Assembly (NCBI GenBank): GCA_014879845.1
Contig: JACSRI010000147.1
Coordinates: 1-64,000, forward strand
Direction: 5' to 3'
Origin: Opitutaceae bacterium
GTDB taxonomy: Bacteria > Verrucomicrobiota > Verrucomicrobiia > Opitutales > Opitutaceae
Length of the DNA stretch: 64,000 nucleotides
Below, piece by piece: positions 27,396-57,661 of the stretch; position 1 is the first letter of the stretch; each line of letters opens with the position of its first letter. The position numbers and the translations under genes are program-made. The notes beneath the pieces are model-generated. The model saw only the letters and a list, made by a program, of their open reading frames with translations. It did not search any database and had not been told where the DNA came from.

Positions 27396-28175
27396 CTACC
27401 CGACAGCTGACTCCCGTTCTGGATCACAGCTGACAATGACCGTTCTTCGAATCCGGGGCGGAGGTTCCCTCCGTTCGTCGAGGAGCACCAGGAGTTGGTG
27501 GACGGCCTCCTTACCCAGAGCCCATGCATCATCGAGACTCCGTGGCATGGATGAACCTCGTTTGTCGGATTCGAGGTCGATCCTGACCGATCGTGGTCCA
27601 GCCGCTCCCTGTCGCATGCACACAACTGACATCGAGGGGATCGCCTGTAGTTCGGCGGCGTTGAAGACCTCCCGCGCCGGAACCACGATAGCGCCGCGAA
27701 TCCCTCGCCACGCGATCACATCGACGACTCGCCATGGCGAAAGACGCTTCAAAGACAGGTCGAGCACGTCGATTCCATAGCCGAACTGCTCGGCGTAGGC
27801 ACGAGCGCCGCGTAGAAATCGATCCACAGCGGCTTGGTCTTCGTCAAAGGAGACGATCGCCGCAAGCGCCTCCTTGTAGCGCACCGCTCTCAGCGTTCTC
27901 AGGTCCGTCATGAACCGGGACATCGCCGGATCGAGAACGTATCCAAGTCGTCGAGCAACCGCTTCGACTCGTGCCCGAGTCTCGGGTGTCACCGATGGAC
28001 TCCCCCGCAACGCGTGCGATACCGTGGTCCGCGACACCCCCGCAGCCATGGCCACCTGCCGCATCGTTACGTTTGTTCTCACCCGCAATCGCGGAACGAC
28101 CGCTCGCTGACCCTCGCCATCGTCTCCGCCGCGACGATGGTCGACGGTTGTAGCCATGGACCGGCACAGAGTCAT
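27396..28175 (-). CDS. LacI-family transcriptional regulator, shortened sensor domain
   Basis: 259 residues against ~330-345 for the family. The DNA-binding domain is complete: MRQVAMAAGVSRTTVSHALR then PETRARVEAVARRLGYV. The first part of the periplasmic-binding-like domain follows (FGYGIDVLDLSLKRLSPWRV, VIAWRGIRGAIVVP). After SVRIDLESDKRGSSMPRSLD the sequence jumps to the typical end, WALGKEAVHQLLVLLDE, so about 80-90 central residues seem to be missing. The ATG at 28175 overlaps the RND permease stop as ATGA, indicating coupling. The reading frame is open, so it may be a functional short form that no longer binds an effector, or a decaying gene. Confidence 0.8.
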   Translation of the reverse strand: MTLCRSMATTVDHRRGGDDGEGQRAVVPRLRVRTNVTMRQVAMAAGVSRTTVSHALRGSPSVTPETRARVEAVARRLGYVLDPAMSRFMTDLRTLRAVRYKEALAAIVSFDEDQAAVDRFLRGARAYAEQFGYGIDVLDLSLKRLSPWRVVDVIAWRGIRGAIVVPAREVFNAAELQAIPSMSVVCMRQGAAGPRSVRIDLESDKRGSSMPRSLDDAWALGKEAVHQLLVLLDERREPPPRIRRTVIVSCDPERESAVG

Positions 28176-31100: not shown

Positions 31101-31291
31101 GTCACCTCGGTCTCGAGCGTCGACGGCGTGGCGCCCGGCAGCACGGCCGTGACCACGACCATCGGAAAGTCGAGATCGGGCAGGTGCTGCACCGGAAGCT
31201 TGCGATAGCCCACCACGCCCGCGACGCACAATAGCGCGAACAACAGGATCGAGGGGATGGGCTTGCGGATGGCCCAGGCCGAGAAGTTCAC
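28172..31291 (-). CDS. RND-family efflux permease (AcrB/MdtB-like)
   Basis: 1,039 residues, the normal size for a hydrophobe/amphiphile RND pump. Family signs: an N-terminal helix with RKPIPSILLFALLCVAGVVG, porter domain phrases (PVQHLPDLDFPMVVVTAVLP, RIEDSVSTVGSVRHIYS), and the proton-relay Asp pair in LIIGVLVDDAIVEIENIERH (part of TM4). Twelve membrane segments are expected. It couples inward proton flow to drug or solute export. The adaptor gene precedes it with a 4-bp ATGA overlap and the LacI-type gene follows with another, giving a tight three-gene operon. No TolC gene is present, so it may share the outer-membrane channel encoded at 56269-57621. Confidence 0.95.
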   Translation of the reverse strand: MNFSAWAIRKPIPSILLFALLCVAGVVGYRKLPVQHLPDLDFPMVVVTAVLPGATPSTLETEVTRRIEDSVSTVGSVRHIYSTVNDGTSVTTIEFDLEKNLQEAVSDVRNAVDRVRNKLPPEMQDPIISRVNTTGGAILTFAVESEAMDEVELSWFVDNDVGKVLLAVDGVGEVARLGGVDREIRVELDPTRLLALGVSAADVSAQVRLVQQEAPGGRTNLGGLEQSVRTSSPAERVEDLAALPIALTDGRAIRLDAVARVRDTTAEPRQAAYVDGRPVVSFQITRSRGASEVAVAARVRAKVGEIVEAHPHVAIREVNNTIEPVLSNYDAAMHSLYEGAFLAVVVVFFFLRDWRATFVSAVALPLSVIPTFAVIAMLGFQLNSITLLALTLIIGVLVDDAIVEIENIERHLRGGKSPRNASLEAANEIGLAVIATSLTLVAVFLPTAFMGGIAGKFFKQFGWTASIAVLFSLLVARLLTPMMAAVLMKPRAPDTAHDADGRLMTLYLRAVRTCLRHPFKTMAGAMGFLIASVSLLAFIPTNFVDAEDQNQILVTVEAPPGSTIENTILLAEHARRIVAANPEVRNVYTTVGAANAGRIGGSGGSAAEVRRASLVVSLVPANERDRSQVEIERALRARFAEIPGARLGLGGNTSGQQVMLVLAGDDQRLLIEATRRIMADLRTLPGLGNVSSTASLLRPELVVQPDFARAAELGVSTAAISQAVRVATTSDYDQNLPRLNLPNRQLYIRTQLPQEDRSTLETIRHLRVTSVNGPVPLASVARIAVEGGPAQIDRIDRSRNVTIVIETEGRPIGEINKQVEALESLRDLPSGIRRVASGESEQQAELFGGFGLAMGAGVFCVYAVLVLLFHDFLQPITILTALPLSVGGAFAALAICGYSLSLSSLIGLIMLMGIVTKNSILLVEYAIMARDEHGLSRTEALVDACHKRARPIIMTTFAMIAGMMPMALQLGVSSAFRGPMALAVMGGLITSTALSLLVVPVVFELVDEFKLRLKRRFRTSESQPAQLGRSAAGGAKATG

Positions 31292-32430
31292 CGACGTCCT
31301 CCACCCTGCAGGGCCACGGTGGATTCACCCGACTTCAGCGAGCGGTCCGGCTCAGCGATCACGACCAAATCGCCCTCCTCGAGAAAACTTCCACCCGACG
31401 CGACAATCCGATCCCCACCGCTCAGGCCTTCGGTGATCTCGACTTGCAACCCGCGGCGCCGGCCCGGGACGACCTTCATCTGGCGCACGCGGCGCTCGTC
31501 ATCGACCTTCATCACGTACTGAAAGCCATCACGATAGACGATCGACGACTCGGGCACGTGCAGCGCCGGCGCCGTTCCGATCTCCACCACGCCTGCGGCA
31601 AACATTCCGGCCCGCAGGACACCCGGCTCCGGAAGATCGACATAGAGCAGGCCCATCAAGGTCGCGGCATCGATCACGGGTGAAACCGCCCGGACCGTGC
31701 CGATCACCGAGCCCTGTCCGCGAGCTTCGACCACCACGCGCTGGCCGACCACGACCCGCGCCAGCTCGTCGGCCGGCAGCGTCCCTCGCCACTCGAGCCG
31801 ATTCTGGCGGATCATGCGAAAGAGTTCCGAGCCCGTGCCCACCACGGCGCCAACTGTCGCCGCCCGGGACGAGATCACGCCATCGTCGGGCGCGACGACC
31901 ATCGCTTGTTTCATTCTCAAGCGCTGCGCCTCCAGCCGGGCCGCAGCGGCACTTAGGCGTGCGATGCCCGCGCGCTCCGACGCGACCTGTTGCGCGAGGT
32001 GCTCCGGGCTCACCACACGCGTCTCGGCAAGGCCCCGCGCACGCTCGGCCTGCTCGCGCGCGAACGCCAGCGCCGCTTCCGCCTCGGCGACGGCAGCCTC
32101 GGCTTGCGCGATGTCGACGCGCACCGACTCGTCGCGGAATCGCGCGAGCACTTGTCCCTTGGATACACGATCGCCGACATCAACCAGCACGTCATCCAGC
32201 GGCAGGCCGCCAATCTCGGCTCCAACGATCGACTCCTGCCACGCGTCGACGCTTCCGGTCCCAGCGACCACCTCCGGCCACTCGGCCACGGCGGGCGATA
32301 CCAGCGAGACGGTCAGGGCCGGCTTGCTCTCGGCACCTGGGTTGCCCGACCCGCGGCCGCACCCGGCGACAGACAGCAGCACGGACAGGTACAGGAGCCC
32401 ACGTCCAACGGCTGAATTTGTAGATTTCAT
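31288..32430 (-). CDS. RND efflux periplasmic adaptor lipoprotein
   Basis: 380 residues from the ATG at 32430 (MKSTNSAVGRGLLYLSVLLS). A signal peptide ends in a lipobox, LLSVAGCGRG, so the protein should be lipid-anchored. The lipoyl-like half GAEIGGLPLDDVLVDVGDRV, an alpha-helical hairpin (~100-180, rich in Ala/Glu/Arg) and the second lipoyl half PDDGVISSRAATVGAVVGTG are clear. Beta-barrel and membrane-proximal parts follow (VPESSIVYRDGFQYVMKVDD). It should bridge the inner-membrane pump and an outer-membrane TolC-type channel. Coupled to the downstream permease by an ATGA overlap. Confidence 0.93.
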   Translation of the reverse strand: MKSTNSAVGRGLLYLSVLLSVAGCGRGSGNPGAESKPALTVSLVSPAVAEWPEVVAGTGSVDAWQESIVGAEIGGLPLDDVLVDVGDRVSKGQVLARFRDESVRVDIAQAEAAVAEAEAALAFAREQAERARGLAETRVVSPEHLAQQVASERAGIARLSAAAARLEAQRLRMKQAMVVAPDDGVISSRAATVGAVVGTGSELFRMIRQNRLEWRGTLPADELARVVVGQRVVVEARGQGSVIGTVRAVSPVIDAATLMGLLYVDLPEPGVLRAGMFAAGVVEIGTAPALHVPESSIVYRDGFQYVMKVDDERRVRQMKVVPGRRRGLQVEITEGLSGGDRIVASGGSFLEEGDLVVIAEPDRSLKSGESTVALQGGGRR

Positions 32431-32476
32431 CAGATCAGTACCCGCGGCCTGGGTGATATCCCAGACTTGAGGGCGG

Positions 32477-33574
32477 TCAGTGACCCGTCCCGCTGGCGCC
32501 CAGGTAGTTGCCATACCCGACCACGAGCGTGGAGAGCACGAGCACGGCGATGCCGGCGAAGATGTAGCCGTGGGTGCGGTGACTCGATCCCTTCCACTCC
32601 TTGAGCACGATGCCCCAAAGCGAGCTGAACAGGATGATGCTGGCCATGTGCAGGGTCCAACTCGAGAACTCGTACTGCCCCATCTTCGTCTGGCCCATGC
32701 TGTAGAAGAAAAACTGCAGATACCACGTCACGCCGGCCATCGCCGAAAAAGCGTAGTTGGTGACCAGTGACGCGCGGCCAGAGCCCGCATCCACTGCAGG
32801 CTTCAGCGCACCATACTCGCCGAGGCTGCGGTTGCGCATGGCGAGGATCAGGCACCAGATCGAATTGGTTGTGATGCCGCCGAGCAGCACGACGATCAGC
32901 ACCGGCAGATTTTGCCAGAGATCGGAGCCGCCGTTGTCCGCGAGTGACTGACGCGCGAGGTCGGCAATCGGTTTGCCCGCCGCGAGCCCGTAAGCGAAAC
33001 ACGAGCTCATCACGCCCGAGAACACCGCGACCAAGAGGCCGCGGCGGAAGTTGAACTCGCGCACCGACGCCTTCTTTTGCTCAGGGCTGAGTTCGCGCTC
33101 CTTGCGCACACCGGCCATCCCGCACAGTCCGATGCCTCCGAGACAGACGGCGACACCGAGCAGCACGTAGCGTCCCGACACGCTGGCGGCGATCGTCCCG
33201 AGTTCACCCGCGAAGAGCGGCGGCATGAGCGTGCCGAAGGCCGAGCAAAAACTCAGCGCCACCGCCATGCCGAGGCCGATGCCAAGATAACGCATGGTCA
33301 GGCCAAAGGTGAGGCCGCCCAGGCCCCAGAGCGCCCCGAAGACGTAGGCCCAGAGCACGCTGCCCGCCGGCGCCGCGCGCAGCACGGCGAACAAGTCGGG
33401 CACGAGCAGGCTCGCGAAGAACCACGGCGCGACGATCCACGAGAAGAATCCACCGACGAGCCAATAGGTCTCCCACGACCAGCGTTTCACGCCGCGGTAC
33501 GGCAGATAAAAACTCGCGGACGCGAAGCCGCCGAGCCAGTGATAGATCAGACCGAGGAGTGGATTGGCGCCCAT
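32477..33574 (-). CDS. rhaT: L-rhamnose/proton symporter RhaT
   Basis: 365 residues with about ten hydrophobic segments. The start MGANPLLGLIYHWLGGFASA and the phrases YLPYRGVKRWSWETYWLVGG, GLTFGLTMRYLGIGLGMAVA and WCLILAMRNRSLGEY are characteristic of RhaT of the drug/metabolite transporter superfamily. It imports L-rhamnose with protons across the inner membrane. Its gene begins 30 bp after the GH3 gene stop, and the operon upstream encodes a GH78 rhamnosidase and a TonB receptor, so it should take up the released rhamnose. No rhamnose catabolic genes (rhaA, rhaB, rhaD) are present in the window. Confidence 0.94.
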   Translation of the reverse strand: MGANPLLGLIYHWLGGFASASFYLPYRGVKRWSWETYWLVGGFFSWIVAPWFFASLLVPDLFAVLRAAPAGSVLWAYVFGALWGLGGLTFGLTMRYLGIGLGMAVALSFCSAFGTLMPPLFAGELGTIAASVSGRYVLLGVAVCLGGIGLCGMAGVRKERELSPEQKKASVREFNFRRGLLVAVFSGVMSSCFAYGLAAGKPIADLARQSLADNGGSDLWQNLPVLIVVLLGGITTNSIWCLILAMRNRSLGEYGALKPAVDAGSGRASLVTNYAFSAMAGVTWYLQFFFYSMGQTKMGQYEFSSWTLHMASIILFSSLWGIVLKEWKGSSHRTHGYIFAGIAVLVLSTLVVGYGNYLGASGTGH

Positions 33575-33604: not shown

Positions 33605-35977
33605 TCACTCGCCCTGGTTCACGGCCTGCAGGATACCCTGGAGCATCTCTTCGCTGAACACGCCCCCCGAGACCTGCACGAGCTTGCACAGCGGCATCTC
33701 GTTCATGAAGACAACGATCGTGTCGCGGGCCTTCCTGGCCGCGGCCTGTGCCTCGGGCGAGTCGGTCGGATCCGCCGCGGGCGCCGTGGCGAGCGCTCCC
33801 TGCACGAACTGCTCGTAGAGCGCCTGGCTCGCCGGGTGCCCGGCCAGTTCGCCGAGCGGCGAATAGCGGGTGAGCTTCGGGTGCCCGCGCCGGAAGCCCT
33901 CGACCGCGAGGACCTGTTTCAGCGGAAGCTCGCGCGACGAGCCACCGGCGAGCAGTTCAAAGCTCCCCGTATCCACCACCCAATCATGCACGCGAACATC
34001 GTACCACGCGAAGTCCCGAACCGTCAGCGCGAAGGTCACGGTCTTCTCCTCACCCGGCGCGAGGGTCACCTTGGCGAAATGCTTCAGCTCCTTGTCCGGA
34101 CGCAGCACCGACCCACCGAGCTGTCGGACATAGAGCTGCACGACCTCCGCCCCCGCGCGCTTGCCTGTGTTCATCACCGAAACATGCACGCGCACGCCGT
34201 CCTGCGCCTTGACGTTCGCCGCCTCGGACTTGATTCCCGTGTAGGCAAAGGTCGTGTAGCTTAGCCCGAACCCGAAGGGAAACTGCGGCGCGATTCGGCG
34301 CGCGTCATAGGAGCGATAGCCGACGAACAGACCCTCACCGTAAAGGGCTTGGCCGTTGCGACCGGGGAAATTTGGGAATGCCGGCGTGTCCTCGATCCTC
34401 GCCGGAAATGTCTCCGCCAGCCGGCCGGACGGATTGACGCGACCGGTCAGCACATCTGCGATCGCGCCTGCGCCAGCCTGTCCGCCGAGATAAGCCTCGA
34501 CGATCGCCTTGACACGCGGCGCCCACGGCATGGCCACTGGTGAGCCGTTCATCAACACGACGATCGTGTCCGGTTGCACGGCCATGACGGCCTCGACGAG
34601 CCGGTTGTGTCCAGCGGGGAGATCGAGGTTCTTCCGATCGAATCCCTCGGATTCAAAGCTGTCGGGCAGGCCGATCACGACGATCGCGCGATCTGCCTTC
34701 TTCGCAGCCTCGCGTGCCTCGGCGAGAAGCGCGTCGGTGGTGCCCCCGTCCACGTCATAGCCCGCTGCAAAGGTCAGATTCTTCGCGCCGACAATCGCGC
34801 CGAGTTCGTCGACGACATTGTCCAGCCGGATCGGATTCACCTGTGAGCTGCCGGCGCCCTGGTGGCGCGCGAACCGTGCGAAGCCTCCGATGACCGCGAT
34901 TCGCCCGGCGCGGGCCGGATCGATGGGCAACGTATTGCCGTCGTTCTTGAGCAGGACGATTCCTTCGCCAGCGGCCCGGCGCGCCAGCGCATGGTGCGCG
35001 TCGGCGTCGAAGGTGGCGCCCGGCTTGGCCGCAGCATGCGCGCGCAGCGTCAACTCAAGGATGTCGGTGACGCGCGCATCGAGCACGGCGATGTCGAGCC
35101 TTCCCGAGATGACCGCCGCGACGATGCGGCGGTCGTTGAGACCGTTTGAGCCCGGCATCTCGAGATCGAGGCCGGCCTGCACGCCCGCCACGCGATCATC
35201 GACCGCACCCCAGTCGGACACGACGAGGCCCCGATACCCCCATTTCCCACGCAGGACATCCGTAAGCAAACCCCGGTGCTGTGACACGTAGGTGCCGTTG
35301 AGCTTGTTGTAAGAGCACATCACCGTCCACGGCTGTGCGTCCTTCACGGCCATCTCGAAGGCGGGCAGGTAGATTTCATGCAGCGTGCGCTCATCGACGA
35401 TCGAATCGCTGACCATCCGCTCCCATTCCTGGTTGTTGGCCGCGAAGTGCTTGATCGAGGCACCGACGCCTTGGCTCTGCACGCCCCGTATCCATGCTGT
35501 GGAGAGCCGGCCAGCGAGGATCGGATCCTCGGAAAAATACTCGAAATTGCGTCCACCCAGCGGCGAGCGCTTCATGTTCGCGCCCGGTCCGAGTAGAATC
35601 TGCACCCCGCGGGCCTGCGCCTCGCGACCGAGCGCGACACCGACCTCTTCGATCAACTCCACATTCCAGGTCGCCGCGAGCCCGGGCGCCGTCGGGAAGC
35701 ACGTCGCTGGCAGGCTCTGCGACAGGTTGCCGGGAGCGGCATCCGGCGCGGTCCGGCGCACGCCGTGCGGTCCATCGGTGAGCACGATCGACGGGATGCC
35801 AAGTCGCTCGATCGGCTTGGTGGACCACATGTCGCGTCCCGAGCACAGCGCGGCCTTCTCCTCGAGTGTAAGCTGGGACACGAGCGACTGCGCCTGGGTG
35901 CGAAAATCGATGTCATTCGCCGAGGCGTAGAAAGGCAGCGCGGACGCAGAAAGCGCGAAGAATATCGTGGTCTTCAT
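33605..35977 (-). CDS. exported glycoside hydrolase family 3 enzyme (beta-glucosidase-like)
   Basis: 790 residues from the ATG at 35977. A short signal peptide is present (MKTTIFFALSASALPFYASA). The GH3 N-terminal barrel shows LTLEEKAALCSGRDMW, GIPSIVLTDGPHGVRR and the nucleophile Asp in GYRGLVVSDWGAVDD. The C-terminal alpha/beta sandwich and fibronectin III-like domain are visible (YGEGLFVGYRSYDARRIAPQ, FGFGLSYTTFAY, VVQLYVRQLGGSVLRPDKEL). Likely a periplasmic exo-beta-glycosidase that acts on oligosaccharides after rhamnose removal. A 28-bp palindrome at 36052-36079 upstream suggests its own regulated promoter. Exact linkage specificity is not readable. Confidence 0.94.
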   Translation of the reverse strand: MKTTIFFALSASALPFYASANDIDFRTQAQSLVSQLTLEEKAALCSGRDMWSTKPIERLGIPSIVLTDGPHGVRRTAPDAAPGNLSQSLPATCFPTAPGLAATWNVELIEEVGVALGREAQARGVQILLGPGANMKRSPLGGRNFEYFSEDPILAGRLSTAWIRGVQSQGVGASIKHFAANNQEWERMVSDSIVDERTLHEIYLPAFEMAVKDAQPWTVMCSYNKLNGTYVSQHRGLLTDVLRGKWGYRGLVVSDWGAVDDRVAGVQAGLDLEMPGSNGLNDRRIVAAVISGRLDIAVLDARVTDILELTLRAHAAAKPGATFDADAHHALARRAAGEGIVLLKNDGNTLPIDPARAGRIAVIGGFARFARHQGAGSSQVNPIRLDNVVDELGAIVGAKNLTFAAGYDVDGGTTDALLAEAREAAKKADRAIVVIGLPDSFESEGFDRKNLDLPAGHNRLVEAVMAVQPDTIVVLMNGSPVAMPWAPRVKAIVEAYLGGQAGAGAIADVLTGRVNPSGRLAETFPARIEDTPAFPNFPGRNGQALYGEGLFVGYRSYDARRIAPQFPFGFGLSYTTFAYTGIKSEAANVKAQDGVRVHVSVMNTGKRAGAEVVQLYVRQLGGSVLRPDKELKHFAKVTLAPGEEKTVTFALTVRDFAWYDVRVHDWVVDTGSFELLAGGSSRELPLKQVLAVEGFRRGHPKLTRYSPLGELAGHPASQALYEQFVQGALATAPAADPTDSPEAQAAARKARDTIVVFMNEMPLCKLVQVSGGVFSEEMLQGILQAVNQGE

Positions 35978-36051
35978 TGGGGATGGAAGGGGCCCTGTTG
36001 GGGAACCGGACACTCACGAGAAAACACAGCCATCGAGGCGCTGCACAGTGA

Positions 36052-36196: not shown

Positions 36197-39100
36197 CTAT
36201 TTCCGCGTCACGTGCTCGTCGAGAAACGCCGTCATCTTGCGCATCGCGAGCTGCGACTCCGGTGAGTCCGGCACCATCGGCTGGAACACATGGATCATGC
36301 CCTCGTAGAGATCGAGGATAGCGGGCTGGCCGGCGCTCTCGATTGCCTGGTATTGCCGCACGCAACTGCTCAGGAAGATCTCCCGGGTGCCTCCCTGGAT
36401 CAGCGTCGGCGGAAAGCCCTTGGTATAGTCTCCATAGACTGGCGACACATAGGGATTCTTCACGTCCGCGGGATCGGCGTAGGCGTCAGCGCAGGGCTTC
36501 ATCCCTTCGGGTGAGATGATCGGGTCGGCATCGCGCAGGGTCACATACGATTCACCGGCGCCAGACAGATCGGCGCAGGGCGACCAGAGCACTGCCGCCG
36601 CCGGGAGGCCGAGACCTCGATCCCGCATCCGCAACACCGCGCCGGCAGCCAGGCCACCGCCGGCTGAATCACCGCAGATCGCAATGTTCCGCAGCGCGTA
36701 GCCCTCCTGCTGGAGAGCCTGAAAGACCGCCAGCACTTCATCGATGATCCGCGGCCACTTGGCCCGTGGCGCGACGGTGTAGTCGACCGAGATCAGACGC
36801 AGCTTTGTCGCGTCGGCGATGAAGAGCGAGCAGTAGAGCGTCGAGCGGACCGAGCCCATCGTATAGCCGCCGCCATGACAGTAGACGAGGATGCGTCCGT
36901 CGTCCTTCCAGCCGCGCGGCTTCACGTCGAGGACCGGGGTGCCTCCCAGCGTACGCGGGGCGAGTTCCGGCTGATAGCGCTCGAGCAGCGAGGATTCGTA
37001 TTGCGTGAGCATCTCCTCATTGCGGCGCCAGCGTTCCGCCCAGGCCGCGGCGTCGAGCGACGGCTGTGGATCGCGATTTGCGACGGTGAACGGCGGGGTG
37101 CGCAGAAACGCCTGCCACGCGGGAGAGATGGTGTCCGGGATGTAGAGGCTCGCCCCAGCCTTCGCGGGAGCCGTCGCGGCGGCGAGTTCGGCATCGATCG
37201 CCGCGAGCTTCTCGGGCGTGAGCATTTCCGGGAAGTACTCCTTCAGGGCACGCAGCGTGAGGTGACCTGCCTGGGCGATCTGCGGACTCGCCAGGAGCGT
37301 GGGCAGGTGTCGCGCGAGCACGGCCCGCGCCGACGGATCGGCAAGCAGGGCGCTCACCGTCGAGTGGGTCGAGAGCGTGCTGCCGGTCTGCGCGGCCGGT
37401 GGGCTGAGCTTCGCGAGCTCGTCCGCGATCGTCGTGAGCACCGCGTCGGGCAGCGCATCCTCGGCGTAGCTCTGGAGCTGCCGGAGCGTGATGCCCCGGG
37501 CCATGGCGAACTGAGGGTTCGCGATCATCGCGGCGATGTGTTTCTCGAGCACGGCCTTGGCTGCCGGGTGGTCGAGCAACTCACCGATCTTGGTGTCGAG
37601 GCCAAATCCGGAGCCGGCCGCCGGCACGGGTGCGGGCACAGCGGTCGCCAGCTCCGCACCGATCGCTTGCAGCTTCGCGTCCGTGAGCACGTCCTTCACG
37701 TGGGGCTGCAGTTGCCTGAGAGTGATGCCGCGCGCCATGGCGAACTGCGGCGCGTCGATCATCGCGCCGAGGTGCTTCGCGAGCACGGCCTTCGTCGCGG
37801 GATGGTCGAGCAGATCGCCGATCTTCGAGTCGAGACCGAGAGGGGCAGACCCGGACGGCGCGGGCGCCTGGGGCGGCGCGGCCGGCGCGGCATGCGGCGT
37901 GGACGGCGCGGCGGCGCCGAGCGCGACGAGGTCGGCATCGATGGCCTTGAGACGGTCCTCGGTGAAGTAGTCGGCAGCAAACTCCGCGACCTTGCGCAAC
38001 GTCATCGAGGCGGCCTGGGAAAACTCCGGATTGTTCGCCGCCTCCGGGGCGTGCTTCTGCAGGATCGCCAGCGTCGCCGGATCCGCCAGCAGGTCGCCGA
38101 TGAGCGAGGCGTCCACCGACCACTTGGGCGGGCCGAGTTTCGCCAGTGCGGCCGCGATCATGCCGAGCCGCTCCGTCGTGAAATACTCCGGTGCAAAATC
38201 ATGTAGCTGCGCGAAGGTGGCCTCGCGCGCCTGCTCGAACTCCGGGTTGTTGATCGCTTCCGGAATGACGGCCATCAACGCCGCCTTGGCCGCGGGATCG
38301 TCGAGGAGCACGCCGATCTTGGTGTTCAGCGAGTATCCGGCGGAATCGGTCACCTGCACCTTCACCTTCGTCGCGCGTTCTTCTTCCTCGGCGTTGCTCT
38401 TGCCAGGCACCGGCGGCGCGGACACCGCGCGCGCAAGGTAAGGCGCGCGGAAGCGATAGTCTCCCGAGCCGGCGGAAAACACCGCGGCACCACGTTCCAT
38501 GCGCAGGAATTTCAATCCCGGAGCCTGCGCCGCAGGCTGGTCACCCTCACGCACGTCGGCGGCGGACGTCGCGGGCACGTGGATCTCGCCCGCGAGGTTG
38601 GGCGGCAGTGTGACCGCGAGCGTCAGTTCGCCGCGCTCGATGCTCCAACTCGTGGCAATGCGGCCACGCACGCTGTCGTAATGTCCCCGGGCGAAGTTCA
38701 CCCCGGGTCCGGGCTCGGGCCGGATCACGACGCGGGCAAATCCGGGATCGCCATCGATGCCCAGCACGGTGCGGTAGAGCCACTCCACGCAGGAGCCGTA
38801 GGCGTAGTGATTGAACGAATTCATGCCGGCGTCGCCGAAGCCGTGCGCCTTCGTGAAACTGTTCCAGCGCTCCCAGATCGTGGTCGCACCCTGTGCGACC
38901 GAATAGCCCCACGAGGGAAACTCCGTGCCCGTGATCGTGTAATACGCGCCGTCGGTGTGGCCGACGTCCGTGAGCGTGGGCAGCAGCAGATTCACGCCGA
39001 GGAAGCCGACGCCGAGACGCCAGTTGCGATCCTCCAGATTCTTGACGAGATGGCTGGTGGCCGCGGTGCGCTGCTCGGGCGTGAGCAGGTCGAAGCGCAA

Positions 39101-41191
39101 GGCGAGCAGGTGCGCGGTCTGCGACTTGTGTTCTCCAATGGAGCCGTCGGCGTTGATGAACTTCTTCTGGAACGCGGCACGCACTTCCTCGAAGAGCTGG
39201 CGGTAGGACGCAGCGTCTTCACCCTTCCCGAGCGCCGACGCCATCTCGGCCATGAGCTTCGCGTCGTAGGCGAGATAGGCCGTCGAGATGAGGTGCTTTT
39301 CCGTGATGCCGCCGATTGCGAGCCAGTCGCCGTAACCGCGGTTGGGAGCGATCAGGCCCTGCGACTGCCCGCGGACGTATTCGACGTAGCGACGCATGGC
39401 CTCGTAGTTCCGCTCCAGCACGCGCGTGTCGCCGTACACTTTCCACAGGGTCCACGGGATGATGATACCGGCATCGGCCCAGCCCGCCGCCGAGCCCTTG
39501 AAGCCGATCGGCGCGGTATCGTTGAACGCGCCCTCCGACGACTGGGTGTCGACGAGGTCGTCCATCCACTTCGTCATGAAGGCGGCGATGTCCTGATTGT
39601 ACGCCCCGGTGCGGACAAACACCTGCGCATCGCCGGTCCACCCGAGTCGCTCGTCGCGCTGCGGACAATCCGTCGGCACCTCGAGATAGTTGGAGAGCTG
39701 GCCCCACCGCGTGTTCGACCAAATTTGGTTCAACAGGGCGCTCGAACTCTCGAACGCACCCGCGTCGGCGTTGGCCGTGCTGAGCACGACCCCGGTGATC
39801 GTGGCCGCGGGAGGCGGCTTCGTCAGTCCTTCGACCTGCACGTAGCGGAACCCGTGAAAGGTGAAGCGCGGTTCCCAGGTCTCCACGCCGCCACCTCGGC
39901 ACACGTAGGTGTCGATCACGCGCGCCGTGCGCAGGTTTTCCACGTAGACGGTGCCATCCGGCTGCAACATCTCCGCGAAGCGCATCCGCACGACCGTGCC
40001 AGCGGGCTCGTCCACCGTCAGGTGGGCGAAGCCCGCAAAGTTCTGACCGAGGTCGAAAACATAGGTGCCCGCCTTCGGCTCGTTGACCGCGACGGTGGGG
40101 CGCTCGGCCACGCGCCGAACCGCCGGTGCCGGATGGCGGCGCAGAATTGCCGGTACGCTCTCCGCACCCGTGGCCACGGCGCTCCAAGCGCGATCGTCGA
40201 AGCCGGGCGCGTCCCAGCCCTTCTGCTCGAGGCGCGCATCATACGATTCGCCGGCCTGCATGTCGGCCTCGAGGATCGGCCCCGTGCTCGCCTTCCATGA
40301 GGCGTCCGTGGCGATCACCTGGCTGCGGCCTGAGGCATCGAAAAGGTGGAGTTCAGCGCGAAGGCGGGTGTTTTTCCCGTAGATGTTTTGGCCGAAGGCG
40401 CCGACATTGCCGCGGAACCAACCGTCCGCGAGAAGGGCTCCGACGGCATTGTTTCCCGCGCGCAGGAGCGCCGTGACGTCGTAGGCCCGGTAGTAGAGTC
40501 GCTTCCGATAACCGGTCCAGCCGGGCGTGAAATACTCGTCGCCGACGCGTCGTCCGTTGAGCCGCGCCTCGACATTGCCCAGCGCCGTGACGTAGAGCAC
40601 GGCCCGCGCGGGCGCCTTGGCCACGGTGAACTCCTTGCGTAGTTGTGTCACCGGCACGTAAGTGCGCTTCTCCTGAGCGGGCGGCAGCCAAGACGCACCC
40701 GAGGGCGGCACGCCGTCGAGGCCGATCCATTCCGCGCGCCAAGCTTCACCGGAGAGCAGACCCATGCTCCAGGTCGCCGGCGAACTCCATGCGGACTGTT
40801 GGCCCGATCCGTCAGTCACCTGCACCTTCCAGAAGACCTGTGTGTGCGCAGTGAGCGCCTTGCCCGCGTAGGCGATCTGCGCGGTGTCCGCCGATTTCGT
40901 GGCCACATCCCAGAGGTCCCCGCGATCCTTTTCGAGCGCCGCGAGCGTCGAGGCGACTAGGATACGGTAGCCGGCCTGGACCTGGCCTCGCGAGCCAGGG
41001 GCTGCTTCGAGGCGCCAGCTCAGGCGCGGCGCGGACTCATCGATGCCAATTGGATCGACGAGATACTCGCAGCGCAGGTCGACGACCTTGAGCGGCGACG
41101 GAGAGCTCTTCGGCGCCGCTCCAAGTGGGAGTGCCGCCAGCAGGGCGACCGCATGCACGACAAACCAGGCACGGACAGAATCAAAGTTCAT
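36197..41191 (-). CDS. GH78 alpha-L-rhamnosidase fused to five helical repeats and an esterase
   Basis: 1,664 residues in one open frame, about twice a normal rhamnosidase. A signal peptide (~1-26) is followed by the GH78 region (~35-935): LRCEYLVDPIGIDESAPRLS, GWTGYRKRLYYRAYDVT, the catalytic-acid segment PTDCPQRDERLGWTGDAQVF with E514, and GATTIWERWNSF. Residues ~955-1338 hold five ~65-residue helical repeats starting near 955, 1028, 1118, 1196 and 1272, each with a (K/V)IG-LLDxPAAKAVLxKH start and an LTxExLAAIDAELA end. Residues ~1345-1664 form an HSL-type esterase: CHGGGYTMGS, nucleophile S1509 in CGDSAGGGLAAG, H1634 in EGMIHVFQ. Probably periplasmic; removes terminal rhamnose and an ester group from the same glycan. 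Confidence 0.9.
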   Translation of the reverse strand: MNFDSVRAWFVVHAVALLAALPLGAAPKSSPSPLKVVDLRCEYLVDPIGIDESAPRLSWRLEAAPGSRGQVQAGYRILVASTLAALEKDRGDLWDVATKSADTAQIAYAGKALTAHTQVFWKVQVTDGSGQQSAWSSPATWSMGLLSGEAWRAEWIGLDGVPPSGASWLPPAQEKRTYVPVTQLRKEFTVAKAPARAVLYVTALGNVEARLNGRRVGDEYFTPGWTGYRKRLYYRAYDVTALLRAGNNAVGALLADGWFRGNVGAFGQNIYGKNTRLRAELHLFDASGRSQVIATDASWKASTGPILEADMQAGESYDARLEQKGWDAPGFDDRAWSAVATGAESVPAILRRHPAPAVRRVAERPTVAVNEPKAGTYVFDLGQNFAGFAHLTVDEPAGTVVRMRFAEMLQPDGTVYVENLRTARVIDTYVCRGGGVETWEPRFTFHGFRYVQVEGLTKPPPAATITGVVLSTANADAGAFESSSALLNQIWSNTRWGQLSNYLEVPTDCPQRDERLGWTGDAQVFVRTGAYNQDIAAFMTKWMDDLVDTQSSEGAFNDTAPIGFKGSAAGWADAGIIIPWTLWKVYGDTRVLERNYEAMRRYVEYVRGQSQGLIAPNRGYGDWLAIGGITEKHLISTAYLAYDAKLMAEMASALGKGEDAASYRQLFEEVRAAFQKKFINADGSIGEHKSQTAHLLALRFDLLTPEQRTAATSHLVKNLEDRNWRLGVGFLGVNLLLPTLTDVGHTDGAYYTITGTEFPSWGYSVAQGATTIWERWNSFTKAHGFGDAGMNSFNHYAYGSCVEWLYRTVLGIDGDPGFARVVIRPEPGPGVNFARGHYDSVRGRIATSWSIERGELTLAVTLPPNLAGEIHVPATSAADVREGDQPAAQAPGLKFLRMERGAAVFSAGSGDYRFRAPYLARAVSAPPVPGKSNAEEEERATKVKVQVTDSAGYSLNTKIGVLLDDPAAKAALMAVIPEAINNPEFEQAREATFAQLHDFAPEYFTTERLGMIAAALAKLGPPKWSVDASLIGDLLADPATLAILQKHAPEAANNPEFSQAASMTLRKVAEFAADYFTEDRLKAIDADLVALGAAAPSTPHAAPAAPPQAPAPSGSAPLGLDSKIGDLLDHPATKAVLAKHLGAMIDAPQFAMARGITLRQLQPHVKDVLTDAKLQAIGAELATAVPAPVPAAGSGFGLDTKIGELLDHPAAKAVLEKHIAAMIANPQFAMARGITLRQLQSYAEDALPDAVLTTIADELAKLSPPAAQTGSTLSTHSTVSALLADPSARAVLARHLPTLLASPQIAQAGHLTLRALKEYFPEMLTPEKLAAIDAELAAATAPAKAGASLYIPDTISPAWQAFLRTPPFTVANRDPQPSLDAAAWAERWRRNEEMLTQYESSLLERYQPELAPRTLGGTPVLDVKPRGWKDDGRILVYCHGGGYTMGSVRSTLYCSLFIADATKLRLISVDYTVAPRAKWPRIIDEVLAVFQALQQEGYALRNIAICGDSAGGGLAAGAVLRMRDRGLGLPAAAVLWSPCADLSGAGESYVTLRDADPIISPEGMKPCADAYADPADVKNPYVSPVYGDYTKGFPPTLIQGGTREIFLSSCVRQYQAIESAGQPAILDLYEGMIHVFQPMVPDSPESQLAMRKMTAFLDEHVTRK

Positions 41192-41335: not shown

Positions 41336-43732
41336 TCAGAAACTGAACTTGGCAGTCACGCCAAGCTCACGCGGTGGGTTCAGCGTCACCATGCGGTATC
41401 CGGAGACCCACGTGCCGATGACATTGCTGCTGCCGCGGTTCGTCTCCACTTGCTCATCGAGGGCGTTCTTGGCCCAGAGGGTGACCTCCCAGCGACGATC
41501 CGAACTGCGCAGACCGACAAAGAGGTCGACCGTGGAGTAACCCGGAAGCTCAGGATCTGGCACATTGCGGATCTCGCGCTCGCCCTTGTAGTAGAAAAGC
41601 CCCCGCGTGAACCACTCCATGGTACGCATGGGACGAGTCCACTCGATCGTGCTGCTGAACGTGAACTTAGGAGCATCGCCCAGCGTCACGCCGCCGATGT
41701 CCGTGTAGCTCACCTGCTCGCCGGGTGTGTTGAAGACGGGATTTCCATTGGCGTCAAACACGCCTGAAGGCGCCATCGTTCCGTCGGCCCAGGTCGCCTT
41801 GGCGTAGGCCGTGTTCACGCCGAGCACGACGCGCCCGGGCAGTGAGGCCGTGGCCCCGAGTTCGATGCCCTTGGATTCGGCATCGCCGTTGAAGGTGATG
41901 CCAACGACATCGTCCTGGAATCCATCCGCCTGGTAGTCGACCGGGATGAACCCCGAGTGGGAGATGTAGCCGCTGAACTTCTGCATGAACAGCGCCGCAT
42001 TGAATTGGAGGCGGTTGTCGTTCACCGCGCCCTTCACGCCGAGTTCGAAGCCGTTCGACGTCTCCTCGGAGAAGTGCAGGTATTTCTCGTCGAGCTGGGC
42101 GGAGGTGCGGAAAGCTGTTCCACCTGGACGATAGGAGCGCCCGTAGGTGAGGTAGGTATTCACACCGGGCCGGAGCTTGTAGGACAAGCTCGCCGAGCCG
42201 GTGAACGGATCGCCCTCGAGGCTTGAGGCGCTGTCGATGCCGAGCGCCGGATCACTCTGCGCGAGGCTGCTCTCGATCTTCTGATAGCGAGCCCCGAGTT
42301 CGAGCCGCCACGCGTCGTCGAACTTGAAGGTCTGCGTCGTGAATACGCCCTTGTAGCTGCCGGAACCGTCCATCGTCAGGTTTAGCGGGATCTCCATGTC
42401 CGGCGCCCGCGGTACCGGGCTCGACGAGACGAAGGGATTCGGGCCATCGAACCAGAGCCGCGCCGCAACCTGCTGCACCGAACCGCTGGTCTCACTGTCT
42501 TCGTAGTAAAGGCCGAAGACATAGTCCCACTTTTCGTGCTCCACCGAGGAGAACCGAAGTTCGTACGAGTAGGTCTCGGACTCGATGTAGAGCAACTGGG
42601 GCGAGCTGTATCCATAGATCAGGTTCATCTGATTGTAGAACTCGCCGGAGATGTCGTTCGACGTCGCGTGACGGCCCGCGATGAGCGAAAGGCGGTGGTC
42701 CTTGGGAAGGTCCCAGTCGACCGTGAGCGAGGTGAGGATCGGGTTGTCTTCGTACGTGTCCATGCCGGGCGCGACCGCCAGCCGGTCCGACGGACGGACT
42801 CCGGAAGGCAGCGGCGCGCCGTAGGTCGCGTCACCCTCGACGGAGTTGGCGCGCACGAGTTCCTGCTCGAGCCACTGGTGCGTGAGATTGACCTCGATGT
42901 CGTCGGTCGGCTTCCAGCCGATCGTGCCGCGATAACTGCGCGTGTGGCTGCGGGTGTCCTCGTCGAGGTAGATATTGTGAATGTCGCCGGCCGCGTTGGC
43001 ATCGTAGACGCCGGCCAGGCGCACGGCGAGTTTGCCGGACACGATCGGGATGTTGATCGCCGCCTGCGTGTTCACGAGGTCGATGTCGGAGAGCGACTGC
43101 TCGATGTTGAACCCAAATTTCTCGAGATCGGGACGACGGGCCGCGTAGGTGATTGCTCCGCCGGGCGAAGAACGTCCGCGCAGCGTACCCTGAGGGCCGC
43201 GCAGCACCTCGATCTGCCCCACGTCATACATCGAGCGAAAGGCAGTGTTCGCACTCACCGGCACTTCGTTCCAATACATGTCGACCGAGGCCGTCGTGCC
43301 GGAGTCAGGATTGAAGGCGATGCCACGCAGGCTCGGCACCGGACTGCGCGGGTCGGGCTTCATGTCGAGGCCGGGGCTGACCACTTCGATGTCCGATACA
43401 TCGAGGAGGTTGAAGTTTTCGACAGTCTTGGCGTCGACGGCGACCACGGCCATCGGCACCTCCTGGAGCGGACGAGAAATCTTGTCGGCCGTGACCATGA
43501 CGACCGGAAGCGTGACGATATTCTCGTCCTCCGTGTCGGATGCATTGGTCGTCGCAGGGGCTTCCGGAGCCTCGGGTGTGGACTGTGCGCTCAAGTAGAC
43601 CGGAGAGACACAGGCGACGGCGAGCAGCGCCGCGGCGCGCACGCAAAACCTGCGTGAAGGATCGAAAATGCCACGGCGACGGGATGTGCCGGAGCACGTT
43701 TGGCCAGGGGAACGGCGGCAAACTGCATTCAT
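41336..43732 (-). CDS. TonB-dependent outer-membrane receptor
   Basis: 798 residues. A long basic N-terminus leads into a signal peptide (AALLAVACVSPVYLSAQS). A TonB-box-like stretch (IVTLPVVMVTADK) precedes the plug domain: PLQEVPMAVVAVDAKTVENF, SVPSLRGIAFNPDSGTTAS in part, IEVLRGPQGTLRGRSSPGGA. The rest is a 22-strand-type barrel ending in an aromatic residue (LGVTAKFSF), as required for outer-membrane insertion. It probably imports rhamnosylated oligosaccharides using TonB energy. It heads the rhamnoside operon, 144 bp before the GH78 fusion, and is divergent from the hybrid sensor gene. Confidence 0.92.
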   Translation of the reverse strand: MNAVCRRSPGQTCSGTSRRRGIFDPSRRFCVRAAALLAVACVSPVYLSAQSTPEAPEAPATTNASDTEDENIVTLPVVMVTADKISRPLQEVPMAVVAVDAKTVENFNLLDVSDIEVVSPGLDMKPDPRSPVPSLRGIAFNPDSGTTASVDMYWNEVPVSANTAFRSMYDVGQIEVLRGPQGTLRGRSSPGGAITYAARRPDLEKFGFNIEQSLSDIDLVNTQAAINIPIVSGKLAVRLAGVYDANAAGDIHNIYLDEDTRSHTRSYRGTIGWKPTDDIEVNLTHQWLEQELVRANSVEGDATYGAPLPSGVRPSDRLAVAPGMDTYEDNPILTSLTVDWDLPKDHRLSLIAGRHATSNDISGEFYNQMNLIYGYSSPQLLYIESETYSYELRFSSVEHEKWDYVFGLYYEDSETSGSVQQVAARLWFDGPNPFVSSSPVPRAPDMEIPLNLTMDGSGSYKGVFTTQTFKFDDAWRLELGARYQKIESSLAQSDPALGIDSASSLEGDPFTGSASLSYKLRPGVNTYLTYGRSYRPGGTAFRTSAQLDEKYLHFSEETSNGFELGVKGAVNDNRLQFNAALFMQKFSGYISHSGFIPVDYQADGFQDDVVGITFNGDAESKGIELGATASLPGRVVLGVNTAYAKATWADGTMAPSGVFDANGNPVFNTPGEQVSYTDIGGVTLGDAPKFTFSSTIEWTRPMRTMEWFTRGLFYYKGEREIRNVPDPELPGYSTVDLFVGLRSSDRRWEVTLWAKNALDEQVETNRGSSNVIGTWVSGYRMVTLNPPRELGVTAKFSF

Positions 43733-43830
43733 AGTTCGTGGGGTGTTTGGGTATGAGTCGCCCGAAGTTGTTTTGGGGCCAACTCCGGTCTTGGTCGCAG
43801 TTCACTCGAACCCGGCGGAGTGCCAACGGT

Positions 43831-43858
43831 GGCGATTAGTGGAAAACCACTGGTCGCC
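43831..43858. promoter_or_regulatory. 28-bp palindrome in the receptor/sensor divergent promoter
   Basis: Outer arms GGCGA (43831-43835) and TCGCC (43854-43858) and inner arms AGTGG (43838-43842) and CCACT (43847-43851) are perfect inverted repeats around AAAA. It lies in the 178-bp gap between the divergent TonB receptor and hybrid-sensor genes. A 24/28 copy lies before the GH3 gene. Candidate binding site for the locus regulator (48612 response regulator or an outside LacI-type protein). Confidence 0.7.
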
Positions 43859-43910
43859 GCGGCCGGCGGTGGCGCAAATCTGGTCGCCCACCCCACCGAC
43901 ACCGACCAGC

Positions 43911-46900
43911 ATGAATGCCGTCGTCCACGCGAAAGCGCCGCGCGCGAGCCCCATCCGATCGCCGGTGAACTTACCCTCAACACGCCGATTGCACCCCACA
44001 ACCACACGCCTTGTGGTGATCGCGCTCGGCCTCGGCGCTGCGTGGCTTGCCTCAGACGTCCAGGCCCAAAGCGCGCACGACACGGCCTCCGGCTGGCGGC
44101 AATCCGGCCGAGGCCTGCCCCTGATCTCCACGTTCGATCTTCCGCCCACGCGCCACAACGGCGAGGTCTGGTCGTTCGCGTCGGCCGAGCACGGACGGAT
44201 CTGGATCGGATCGGATGAGCTGTTTCTCTTCGACGGCAAGGCGCGCGAGAAGATCGACCTGCCGGTGGATACCTACGCCGTGCGCGCGCTCGCGCACGAT
44301 GCCGCGGGCCGCCTCTGGATCGGGGCCATCGGCGAGATCGGCCACCTCGAGCCCACGCCCACGGGCGGCTGGCGCTACGTCTCCGCGCGTGAGGACATCC
44401 AGGCCGCCGGTGTCGATGACCTGCGCGATATCTGGCGCGGCTTCGGCACGCCGGAGGGCGTGGTCTTCGTGGCCGACCAGCAAGTGCTTCGGGTCACCGA
44501 CCACCGGATCGAACGATGGCGGCTGCCCACACCGTTCTCGACGCTCCTCGGCAGCGAGGACGGAGAAAACCTCTGGATCTTCCAGGGCGACGTAGGTCTC
44601 TTGCGCATGGCCCGAGGCGGTCCGGAACTCGCGCTGCCGATGGCGGACCTTCCCGCCTCCGTCGTGTTCTGGGCGTTGACTCCAGAGAGCATCCAGCCCT
44701 TCGCGGCTGGCACGCCCAGCCTGCTCGGCACAGTCGACGGCGTCTTCGCGCGTCAGGATGGTTCGTGGATCCGGTTGCCGAATCTCTCCGCCGCGCTGGC
44801 CGGCAAACTCCCGCTGCATGCGACGATGATCGACCCGCAGTCGGTGGTCGTCGGCAGCTACCTCGGTGGACTTGTCATCGCCTCGCTCGACGACCAGGTC
44901 CTGGCCGTGCTCGATCGCACCAGCGGGCTGCCGCACGACACGATCACCGGCGTGTGGTTCGACCGCGCCGGATTCGTCTGGGCGGGATATCCAGGCGGTC
45001 TTGCCCGGATCGAGGCAAGCGGCGCAGTCTCCCTCTTCGAGACCCGCAACGGCGTTAACGATCCCGTTCTGAAAGTCCTGCCGCATCGAGGAGAGACTTT
45101 TGTTCTCACCCGGCGTCAATTGAGCCGCCTCGCGCCCGGTCGGGCCGGCCGGCCGGCGACAGCAGTACCCGCGGCCATTCTGCAGATTCCCCTTTCTGAT
45201 GCCATCAGCGTGGGTGATGAACTGCTTTTCAGCGGCTACGGCGGCGGCATCTGGCGGCTGGTGGACAACCAGCCCCAGTCGGTCGCGGCGGCTCCGGGTT
45301 TCATCTTCGGGCTTCAGGCCGGTCAACACGTTCCCCAGACGCTGCTCGTCCTGCGGAACACGACGATCGAGGAACTCGCGCTGACCAACACCGGCGATGT
45401 CGCCACGCAGGCGTCGTCGGCCGACTTGGGTGCCTACCCGCTCAATATGGTGCGAGACGCGCTGGGCGACATCTGGGTCGCGACGGTGACGCGAGGCGTG
45501 TTCCGATTCCGGCCCTCGCCCGGCGCGGCCGGCTCCTCGCCACTGACGTTGGTCAAGCACTACCGCGAGGGTGACGGTCTGCCTTCGGCAACCCAGCGCC
45601 CAAGGCTCGCAGCCGTCGGCGGTCGCGTCTTCGTGCTCTCGGAGCGCGAGATCCTCACCTACGACGCCTCCGGCGATCGCTTCGTTGCCGAACCTGCCTT
45701 CCGGCCCTGGATCGGCGTCGCCGCCACGACTTCCTCCGATCCCGCCGTGGCCTACTGGCTCGTACGCGAGAACCGCGACAATGCCGCAGCACCCGTGCTC
45801 ATCCGCGTCAGGGTGGACGATCGCGAGACCTCGCCGACGTGGGAGGCGATTCATACCCCGGACTTCGACCAGGCCGGGAGCATCGCCGGTCTCAGCACCA
45901 CGGATACCGACGGGGGCAGCCTATGGCTGGCTGGCAGTCGAGCCACAGTCCGCCTCTCCCTGCCCAATCTGGGCGCACCGCCGCCGATGCCCCGCCTCGC
46001 GATCCAGCGCATCAGGCGCAACGAACACGACCTCTCCCTGCCAAGTCCGGGCGCAGAACTCCGTCTCGCCCCCGACACGACGCGACTGAGCATCGAACTC
46101 GCCGGCGTGGCCCGCGCGAGCGGCAATACGGTCTACGCCCAAGCCTCGCTCGGCGGGCTTTCAGACGCGTGGATGGCACCCCAGGAGGAGCCGACGTTTT
46201 CCTTCACCGGATTGCGGCCCGGGCGGTACACCTTTCGCGCTCGCTCCGTGGACCCATTTGGGCGCACCGGCGCGGAGGCGACGTTGCTCTTCACGCTCGA
46301 GGCGCCGTGGTACCAGCGCGCGCCGGCGATCGCCGGCTATGTCCTCGCCGGCCTGCTCCTCGTGTTCGGCGGTGTGCGGTGGCGCCTGCGCCACCTCCGG
46401 CGCCAGAACGAGCGCCTCAACCGCATCGTCGACGAGCGCACGCGCGAACTCGCCCACTCGAATGTGGTGAAGAATGAGTTTCTCGAGAATATCAGCCACG
46501 AGATCCGCAACCCGCTCAACGGCATCGCCAACCTCGTCGACCTCCTTCGCGACGCGCCATTGCAGACCGAGGAGCGACGCCTCGCCCAGTCACTCGGACG
46601 CTCGACCGAACATCTCAAGCGGGTTTTCTCTGACGTGCTTGGGTACACGAAACTCGAATACGGACATGTCCAGGTCGACGCCGCGCCGTTTTCACTGCTC
46701 CAGTTGCTCGAGGACGTCGTCGCGCTCTTCGGCGTGGAGGCGCGCGAGCACAAGACCGAGCTGACGCTGCGCCCTGCGGGCGACTTCGCCGACGGATTCC
46801 GCGGAGACGCGGAAAAGGTCCGCACGATCGTAGGGAACTACGTGAGCAATGCGCTGAAGTACGCGCCAGGCGCGCCAGTTGAGATCGAGGTCCGCAGTCA

Positions 46901-50247: not shown

Positions 50248-50850
50248 TTATTCGTCGGGCCCGTCGAGCTTGGGCATGTCGGCCTCGGCCACGCCGAACG
50301 CGCGCAGCTGGGGCTTGACCACCTTCTCGTAGCAGTCCGGGCAGCACCCGTGGCTGAAGCGCGTGCCCGCGCGCTCCCTGAAGTAGGTCTCCACGCTCGT
50401 CCAGTAGGCCTCGTCGTTGCGCACCTTCTTGCAGTAGGTGCAGATCGGCAGGAACGACTCGAGAGTCTTCAGGTCGCTGGTGAACCCGAGGATGCGCTCG
50501 GCCACGCGCAGACGCAGGCGCAGGTCGCGCACGACCACGGGCTTGGTGAGGAAGTCGTCCACGCCGGCGGCGAAGGCCTCCTCGAGGTTGGCATCGGTCG
50601 CGCCCTGCTGGGTGATGAGGATGAAACTCACGTAGTCCTCGCGCTCGTTGCGGATGCGCCGGCACAGCTCGAGCCCGTCGAGCCTGGGTAGTTGCCAATC
50701 GGAGACAACGACGCGCAGGGACTTGTCACGCATGTGCTCCCAGGCGGACTCGCCGTCGGCGGCCAGCACGACGCGGTGGCCCAGGGAACTCAGCGACGAG
50801 CTCAGGACGAGCTGTGCAACAGGATCATCTTCGACGGCGAGTATGTTCAT
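50248..50850 (-). CDS. response regulator with C-terminal Cys-rich motif
   Basis: 200 residues. The receiver (~1-125) starts MNILAVEDDPVAQLVLSSSL and has the phosphoacceptor in RVVVSDWQLPRLDGLELCRR and a late Lys in DDFLTKPVVVRDL. A short tail follows: ICTYCKKVRNDEAYWTSVET and FSHGCCPDCYEKVV. Paired CxxC motifs of this kind occur at the ends of some PAS/receiver proteins and may bind zinc. No DNA-binding domain is present, so output is probably through protein contact. The ATG overlaps the stop of the large hybrid kinase gene as ATGA, so it is the coupled downstream partner. Confidence 0.9.
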   Translation of the reverse strand: MNILAVEDDPVAQLVLSSSLSSLGHRVVLAADGESAWEHMRDKSLRVVVSDWQLPRLDGLELCRRIRNEREDYVSFILITQQGATDANLEEAFAAGVDDFLTKPVVVRDLRLRLRVAERILGFTSDLKTLESFLPICTYCKKVRNDEAYWTSVETYFRERAGTRFSHGCCPDCYEKVVKPQLRAFGVAEADMPKLDGPDE

Positions 50851-57621: not shown

Positions 57622-57661
57622 AGACAAGAGGCGGGAAGCGAGGGACGCGGGAGGCGCGAGG

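Follow-up and report, generated by a model that had tools for sequence, protein, structure and literature searches.

One gene in the window, the 64,000-nucleotide stretch of Opitutaceae DNA that we analyzed, encodes a protein of 1,664 residues in which a predicted GH78 alpha-L-rhamnosidase, five tandem copies of an uncatalogued domain and a predicted HSL-type esterase follow one another. Judged by its sequence, this protein most likely has two activities, deacylating and de-rhamnosylating acylated rhamnosides, and its repeat array most likely is a modular joint. A more specific version, to which we give a probability of about 0.5, is that the enzyme would be secreted and would act with both modules on plant glycosides that are acylated and rhamnosylated, the array serving as both a multivalent connector and a recombination joint. 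The gene and its parts are as follows.

36197..41191, minus strand: whole target gene, 1,664 aa (signal-like N-terminus, GH78, five repeats, HSL esterase)
41117..41191, minus strand: signal-peptide-like N-terminus, residues 1-25, judged by eye
38546..41086, minus strand: GH78 alpha-L-rhamnosidase module, residues 36-882 (Pfam)
39650..39652, minus strand: E514, aligned with catalytic acid E636 of SaRha78A
38870..38872, minus strand: E774, aligned with catalytic base E895 of SaRha78A
38135..38344, minus strand: repeat R1, residues 950-1019
37919..38128, minus strand: repeat R2, residues 1022-1091
37850..37918, minus strand: Pro/Ala-rich linker between R2 and R3, residues 1092-1114; the model has low pLDDT there
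37640..37849, minus strand: repeat R3, residues 1115-1184
37406..37615, minus strand: repeat R4, residues 1193-1262, the copy modelled by AlphaFold
37175..37384, minus strand: repeat R5, residues 1270-1339
36200..37156, minus strand: HSL-type (Abhydrolase_3) esterase, residues 1346-1664

The target frame starts with ATG and has no internal stop over its 1,664 aa. GC content at the third codon position was 0.75 to 0.89 in all 16 of its 104-codon blocks, linkers included. The initial annotation had described one uninterrupted frame that joins GH78, the repeats and a complete HSL-type esterase, and both Pfam and a repeat HMM bear this description out. It had also named an assembly or sequencing error joining two genes as the event that would undo it. 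Such a join is ruled out because homologues in two other genera have the same order of parts, and the third-position GC is uniform with no internal stop.

In Pfam, the GH78 region is made up of Ig_Rha78A_N, Bac_rhamnosid_N, Bac_rhamnosid, Bac_rhamnosid6H and Bac_rhamnosid_C (E-values in the region, 2.5e-115, 1e-53, 5.3e-32, 3.9e-31 and 3e-16), and the six-hairpin catalytic domain with its flanking beta-domains is present. SaRha78A (PDB 3w5m) aligned across nearly all of the region (E=5.6e-229). Its catalytic acid is E636 and its catalytic base E895, according to the available portion of PMC7263609. These residues paired with E514 and E774, so that both GH78 catalytic carboxylates are found in the target; the position of E774 was counted along the displayed query line, the matching SaRha78A chain line being incomplete there. 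E514 had been proposed as a catalytic residue before, and the alignment agrees; the second residue, E774, was absent from that proposal. NCBIfam equivalog names (Stmyc rhamnosidase, GTSAG HSL and, for the neighbouring GH3, arabinopyranosidase) scored under their own cut-offs and served as hints only. We concluded that the target carries a complete predicted GH78 alpha-L-rhamnosidase module.

Abhydrolase_3 matched residues 1435 to 1637 (profile positions 1 to 209 of 210; E 4.1e-44). HGGG at 1439, S1509 in GDSAGG and H1634 were all found where they had been placed before. E1604, which aligned with a Glu in EstD11 (PDB 7at0; E=4e-46 against the target esterase), is the putative catalytic acid. 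We concluded that the target also carries a complete predicted HSL/Abhydrolase_3 esterase. Two catalytic modules that both appear complete support the idea that one enzyme deacylates and de-rhamnosylates.

Residues 883 to 1424 had no Pfam match at E<=1. The five repeats that they include are about 70 aa each and 35 to 70% identical to one another, with pairwise z-scores of 16 to 39 in 10 of 10 pairs (against 300 shuffles). The number of repeats had been given correctly before and the starts to within a few residues, whereas the length had been put at about 65. All five repeat matches in the window's own genome fall within the target protein. A Pfam match to fvmX1 (E 0.0065) and single-sequence Pfam matches around copies of the domain were taken as chance, and weak partial PDB sequence matches (GDSL esterases, CCR4-NOT and others) were discarded. 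A literature search of limited scope, with few terms, turned up no account of the domain. No family in the Pfam-A and NCBIfam releases searched corresponds to the repeat, and we concluded that it is an uncatalogued domain, absent from those releases.

Position 50 is the sole conserved aromatic of the repeat (42 of 44 copies; 1 aromatic column of 72), Cys occurs in 0 of the 44 copies, and the conserved polar positions are R/K at 40, Q at 48 and K/R at 25. In the sequence alignment, most of the conservation is of the kind that a hydrophobic core would produce. AlphaFold modelled a single copy (R4; 42-row alignment) as five helices with pLDDT 91.5 and pTM 0.79, by which the repeat is predicted to be a compact helical fold. 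The model of the repeats-plus-esterase region, built on a 3-row alignment, was poor (pLDDT 56, pTM 0.31).

The top five PDB rows returned by Foldseek for the repeat model were the GH3 enzymes PSTG1 and BglB (E 0.4 to 0.95). With VIA-align, the model matched GH3 C-terminal tails at Z 7.2 (7ms2, residues 675-750; rmsd 2.7 over 66 residues), 6.4 (9lql) and 5.8 (8j9f); taken alone, a Z below 8 is weak evidence of a relation. In hhalign, the repeat profile matched a GH3-tail profile with Prob 95.9 and E 6e-9 over 66 columns. That profile was made from five tails, including those of the GH3 adjoining the target and of the genomes G057 and G081. Repeat-profile A4 matched the 7ms2 tail at E 0.0047. 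The tail in the window scored just 2.6 bits against the five-repeat HMM.

33614..33883, minus strand: C-terminal tail of the adjoining GH3, residues 711-800, related to the repeat but divergent

The profiles and the model together indicate that the repeat is homologous to the C-terminal tail of GH3 beta-glucosidases, its best structural and profile relatives. The literature searched yielded no papers on the structure of this tail. GH3 tails occur in Firmicutes (7ms2; Subdoligranulum), and repeat-like copies other than GH3 tails probably occur there as well. GH3 matches extending into the tail recur in plasmid records of Arthrobacter, Rhodococcus and Subdoligranulum. Small proteins of the DUF1858 type (2k53, 2k5e and 2fi0, which we take to be members of PF08984) reached Z 4.9 to 5.7 against the repeat model, a range that VIA-align calls common. 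Membership of the repeat in DUF1858 was rejected (hhalign Prob 8 over 14 columns, with two DUF1858 sequences only; no Pfam match); any similarity would be one of fold alone, without sequence support.

A profile search built from the five repeats, as suggested in the initial annotation, showed the domain to be spread widely but unevenly. Sphingomonads commonly have single copies, for the most part as secreted-type proteins of about 100 aa. R4 matched 22 of 72,556 plasmid records by tblastn, all from Alphaproteobacterial genera and 20 of the 22 from sphingomonads; the five records that we read closely encode proteins of about 100 aa with signal-like N-termini. A phage origin was rejected, with matches to R4 in 0 of 50,697 phage records (tblastn). 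Scanning genome contigs with two short motifs of the standalone proteins yielded 67 loci, mostly from Sphingomonadales but also from Nitrospirillum, Caulobacter, Aestuariicella, Paraburkholderia and Burkholderiales MAGs. By a crude test, 62 of 72 copies in genome-contig loci have a signal-like N-terminus ahead of them. Profile scans found a copy in 64 of 298 genomes from the family that includes Novosphingobium sp. Chol11 and in 6 of 240 from the class of that strain; in the phylum to which Paraburkholderia belongs, 7 of 249 had one. The centre genome is counted in all three figures. The available part of a periplasmic proteome of N. aromaticivorans (PMC3608174) allowed no link to the domain.

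Copies are also fused to a range of enzymes. Cytochrome P450 ORFs have a C-terminal copy at five loci (L026, L046, L048, L049 and L057; Pfam on two of the five), and an enoyl-CoA hydratase is fused to a copy at L093. GH78 has one N-terminal copy at L171 and L172, type-B carboxylesterase (COesterase) one C-terminal copy at L174 and L175, a BD-FAE esterase one copy at L187, and GH5 two copies at L113. At L117:1303-3210, a signal-like N-terminus and one copy precede a PQQ dehydrogenase propeller. Two adjoining genes at L173:2477-3900 each end in a copy; the longer (373 aa) had no Pfam match at 1e-5, and a GST-like assignment made by eye was dropped. Burkholderiales-type MAG ORFs (L089-L092 and L094), near-identical across several MAGs and about 68 aa from an internal ATG, consist of one copy without an obvious signal peptide. 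Long ORFs at L051, L065, L068, L142 and L168-L170 were left out as fusions; by eye, they are apparent spurious upstream extensions of standalone copies.

Within the family, the profile search found the repeat in 3 of 252 genomes and 3 of 49 genera, the window's included (3 of 250 genomes with an earlier, first profile). Only 2 of 387 genomes in a phylum sample matched, namely the window's own and one with a weak 35-residue match. Each of the three proteins, P0001 (the window protein), P0002 (from G057) and P0003 (from G081), has exactly five copies by the repeat HMM, in one chain of about 1,700 aa. The esterase of P0002 is of the HSL type, like that of the window protein (64% identity). The GH78 of P0003 is 75% identical to that of P0001, and its esterase is BD-FAE versus Abhydrolase_3 in the window; the best local alignment between these esterases has 35 of 113 residues identical. 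They belong to different Pfam families and on that evidence are unrelated. R1, R2 and R3 correspond in order among the homologues, whereas R4 and R5 have traded places between the window protein and P0002: window R4 pairs with P0002 R5 (72%) and window R5 with P0002 R4 (58%). R5 of P0003 is at most 45% identical to every other copy. Together with its esterase it matched, at 50.7% identity over query residues 5 to 366, a Novosphingobium ORF that has a signal-like N-terminus followed by one copy and then a BD-FAE esterase. The most economical interpretation is that the last repeat of P0003 was exchanged together with its esterase, as one unit. The closest relatives of the window's modules in the plasmid collection were from a Sphingobium plasmid for the esterase (54.4% over query residues 151 to 413) and from Gemmatirosa for GH78 (44%), and the modules may thus have different histories. 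P0002 and P0003 have lipobox-like N-termini (homologues at L016:9918-15020 and L017:5854-10971) and the target has none, so that members may differ in how they are anchored to the membrane.

The target lies in a locus with the following neighbours.

33605..36013, minus strand: GH3 glycosidase, adjoining the target
32477..33574, minus strand: RhaT L-rhamnose/H+ symporter (Pfam/NCBIfam)
41336..43732, minus strand: TonB-dependent receptor, upstream of the target
28172..32514, minus strand: RND efflux permease and membrane-fusion protein
43668..47996, plus strand: divergent hybrid two-component sensor/regulator (Reg_prop, Y_Y_Y, HisKA, HATPase, receiver, Hpt)

G081 has the TonB receptor, the GH3 and RhaT in common with the window; G057, whose contig stops close to the target homologue, has the GH3 and RhaT. 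The divergent hybrid two-component system, beside the TonB receptor, probably regulates the locus, in which we saw no GH106. At 50847-56000 lies a 1,717-aa hybrid kinase with MASE1, CHASE, several PAS, receivers and Hpt, adjoined by a second RND efflux set (56269-62117). The bifunctionality proposed at the outset is also supported by an esterase that appears to have been exchanged yet is present in all three homologues, and by the RhaT and GH3 genes next to the target.

A GH3 similar to the window's was present in 14 of the 67 loci, versus an expectation of 0.8 based on the density of GH3 in 50 of these genomes (243 in 223.8 Mb); the loci are related to one another, so this enrichment does not represent 67 independent events. 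GH78 or GH106 was present in 9 of the 67, and 7 of these 9 also have GH3. TetR_N was found in 24 of 67 upstream versus 6 of 62 downstream neighbours (129 of 134 immediate neighbours tested, near-copies excluded; each set includes plasmid loci L024-L028). In Sphingobium yanoikuyae, a standalone copy follows GH39, and a P450 with a C-terminal copy lies nearby. The tomato-root isolate Sphingobium sp. TomTYG65 has the order GH78, HSL esterase, GH106, GH3, followed by TetR and a standalone copy, beyond which lie a transposase, an RND pump and a TonB receptor. The available portion of PMC10653915 reports that SpGH3-1, SpGH106-1 and SpGH78-1 of Sphingobium sp. RC1 act on steroidal saponins, that the locus numbers of SpGH3-1, SpGH106-1 and SpGH78-1 are consecutive but for one gene before SpGH78-1, and that six saponin GHs are present in all alpha-tomatine-degrading isolates; the same portion does not mention a small standalone protein for the RC1 cluster. 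From gene order and families, we infer that the TomTYG65 cluster is orthologous to the RC1 saponin cluster, as far as that portion describes it. The parts of the window locus (GH78-five repeats-esterase, GH3, RhaT, TonB receptor and RND pump) are close to those of the sphingomonad cluster, and for this reason we read the target as a probable deacylating rhamnosidase for acylated plant rhamnosides, possibly saponins.

In the mechanism that we propose, the HSL esterase would remove an acyl group from an acylated rhamnosylated plant glycoside, the GH78 module would take off terminal L-rhamnose, which RhaT next door would import, and the neighbouring GH3 would remove the sugar after it. The array would be a non-catalytic modular joint made of a small helical domain. 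It may keep the catalytic ends flexibly spaced and present several faces on which partner enzymes with a copy of the domain could dock, the GH3 tail being one candidate, and its repeated sequence may be a recombination joint where one esterase replaced another. The substrate, the docking and the recombination mechanism are what we infer for the target. Separate single-copy fusions to GH78, COesterase and BD-FAE esterase count for the array as connector; against it, many copies stand alone, a form that a pure linker does not need, the tail of the adjoining GH3 scores low with the five-repeat HMM, the repeats-plus-esterase model is poor, and the array is confined to 3 of the 252 genomes of the family.

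The main rival to a connector is that the domain binds or solubilizes a hydrophobic aglycone (steroid, triterpene or lignan) and presents the glycoside to the fused enzyme, five copies raising avidity or load. Copies occur in Novosphingobium sp. Chol11, Croceicoccus estronivorus and Aestuariicella hydrocarbonica, whose names point to steroid or hydrocarbon degradation and which we presume to have such metabolism. The P450 fusions and the TetR-type regulator as upstream neighbour in 24 of 67 cases are consistent with this role, as is the standalone copy beside the TomTYG65 GH78-HSL-GH106-GH3 cluster, whose order matches that of the RC1 saponin genes in the available portion of PMC10653915. PSTG1, whose C-terminal domain is a top structural match of the repeat, hydrolyses the lignan glycoside sesaminol triglucoside (available part of PMC3622683). 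Set against these points are the conserved positions, which are mostly as expected of a hydrophobic core, and the enoyl-CoA hydratase fusion, which fits less well; we consider aglycone binding rather unlikely.

An inert flexible spacer, without partner or ligand, would suit the modest identity among the target copies (35-70%), the Pro/Ala-rich linkers and the low pTM of the repeats-plus-esterase model. It would not lead one to expect exactly five copies in 3 of 3 homologues, standalone proteins of about 100 aa in many genomes (a copy in 64 of 298 of one family) or conserved polar residues at positions 40 (R/K), 48 (Q) and 25 (K/R), and we judge it improbable. The initial annotation had offered a spacer alongside binding of glycan or of the cell envelope. 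Of the two, the spacer is the less improbable; what speaks against the binding role is that enzymes of a cytoplasmic type (P450 and enoyl-CoA hydratase ORFs) carry the domain as well. The apparent secretion of the enzyme would fit glycan or envelope binding, and so would an array sitting between catalytic modules, where some CBM-bearing enzymes have their binding modules. However, the lipobox-like N-termini of P0002 and P0003 would anchor through lipid rather than repeats, the short Burkholderiales proteins are a copy without an obvious signal peptide, just position 50 is a conserved aromatic, and there was no match to a CBM family of Pfam in residues 883-1424 at E<=1. This role seems to us very improbable.

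A wider reading, which we put forward tentatively and hold to be somewhat doubtful, is that the repeat is an unrecognised accessory domain of bacterial saponin or steroid-glycoside catabolism that, as a small secreted protein or in fusions with rhamnosidases, esterases, P450s and dehydrogenases, delivers hydrophobic glycosides or docks enzymes, the array being a recombination joint at which the esterase can change and the rhamnosidase stay. The domain is predicted to fold well and deserves a name; it occurs as a secreted protein of about 100 aa, in P450 and esterase fusions, in rhamnosidase fusions on either end and as a five-copy array. Should it dock enzymes or carry aglycones, this would go some way to explain how bacteria in soil cope with toxic plant glycosides of low solubility, and the design of bifunctional enzymes for deglycosylation would gain a natural joint whose ends can be swapped.

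The target resembles several known systems in its parts and differs from each in how they are joined. SaRha78A (3w5m/3w5n) matches nearly the whole GH78 region, with a corresponding acid/base pair; unlike the target, its solved chain (1,043 aa) has nothing matching the repeats or the esterase. EstD11, of the HSL type (bacterial family IV), shares HGGG, GDSAGG and the C-terminal His, whereas the target esterase is the C-terminal module of a rhamnosidase. The tails of BglB (7ms2) and PSTG1 (8j9f, 9lql) have a similar helical fold and a profile that appears homologous, but each GH3 tail is one longer C-terminal copy, in contrast to five tandem copies between two enzymes. DUF1858 (PF08984) may have a similar compact helical arrangement, but the repeat has no sequence match to it and no Cys in its 44 copies. 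Like the window locus, the RC1 cluster combines GH78 with GH3, and it also has GH106; the related isolate TomTYG65 has, within or next to an RC1-like cluster, an HSL esterase as well as the domain in standalone form. In the sphingomonad saponin cluster these are separate genes, whereas in the window the rhamnosidase and the esterase are fused in one protein.
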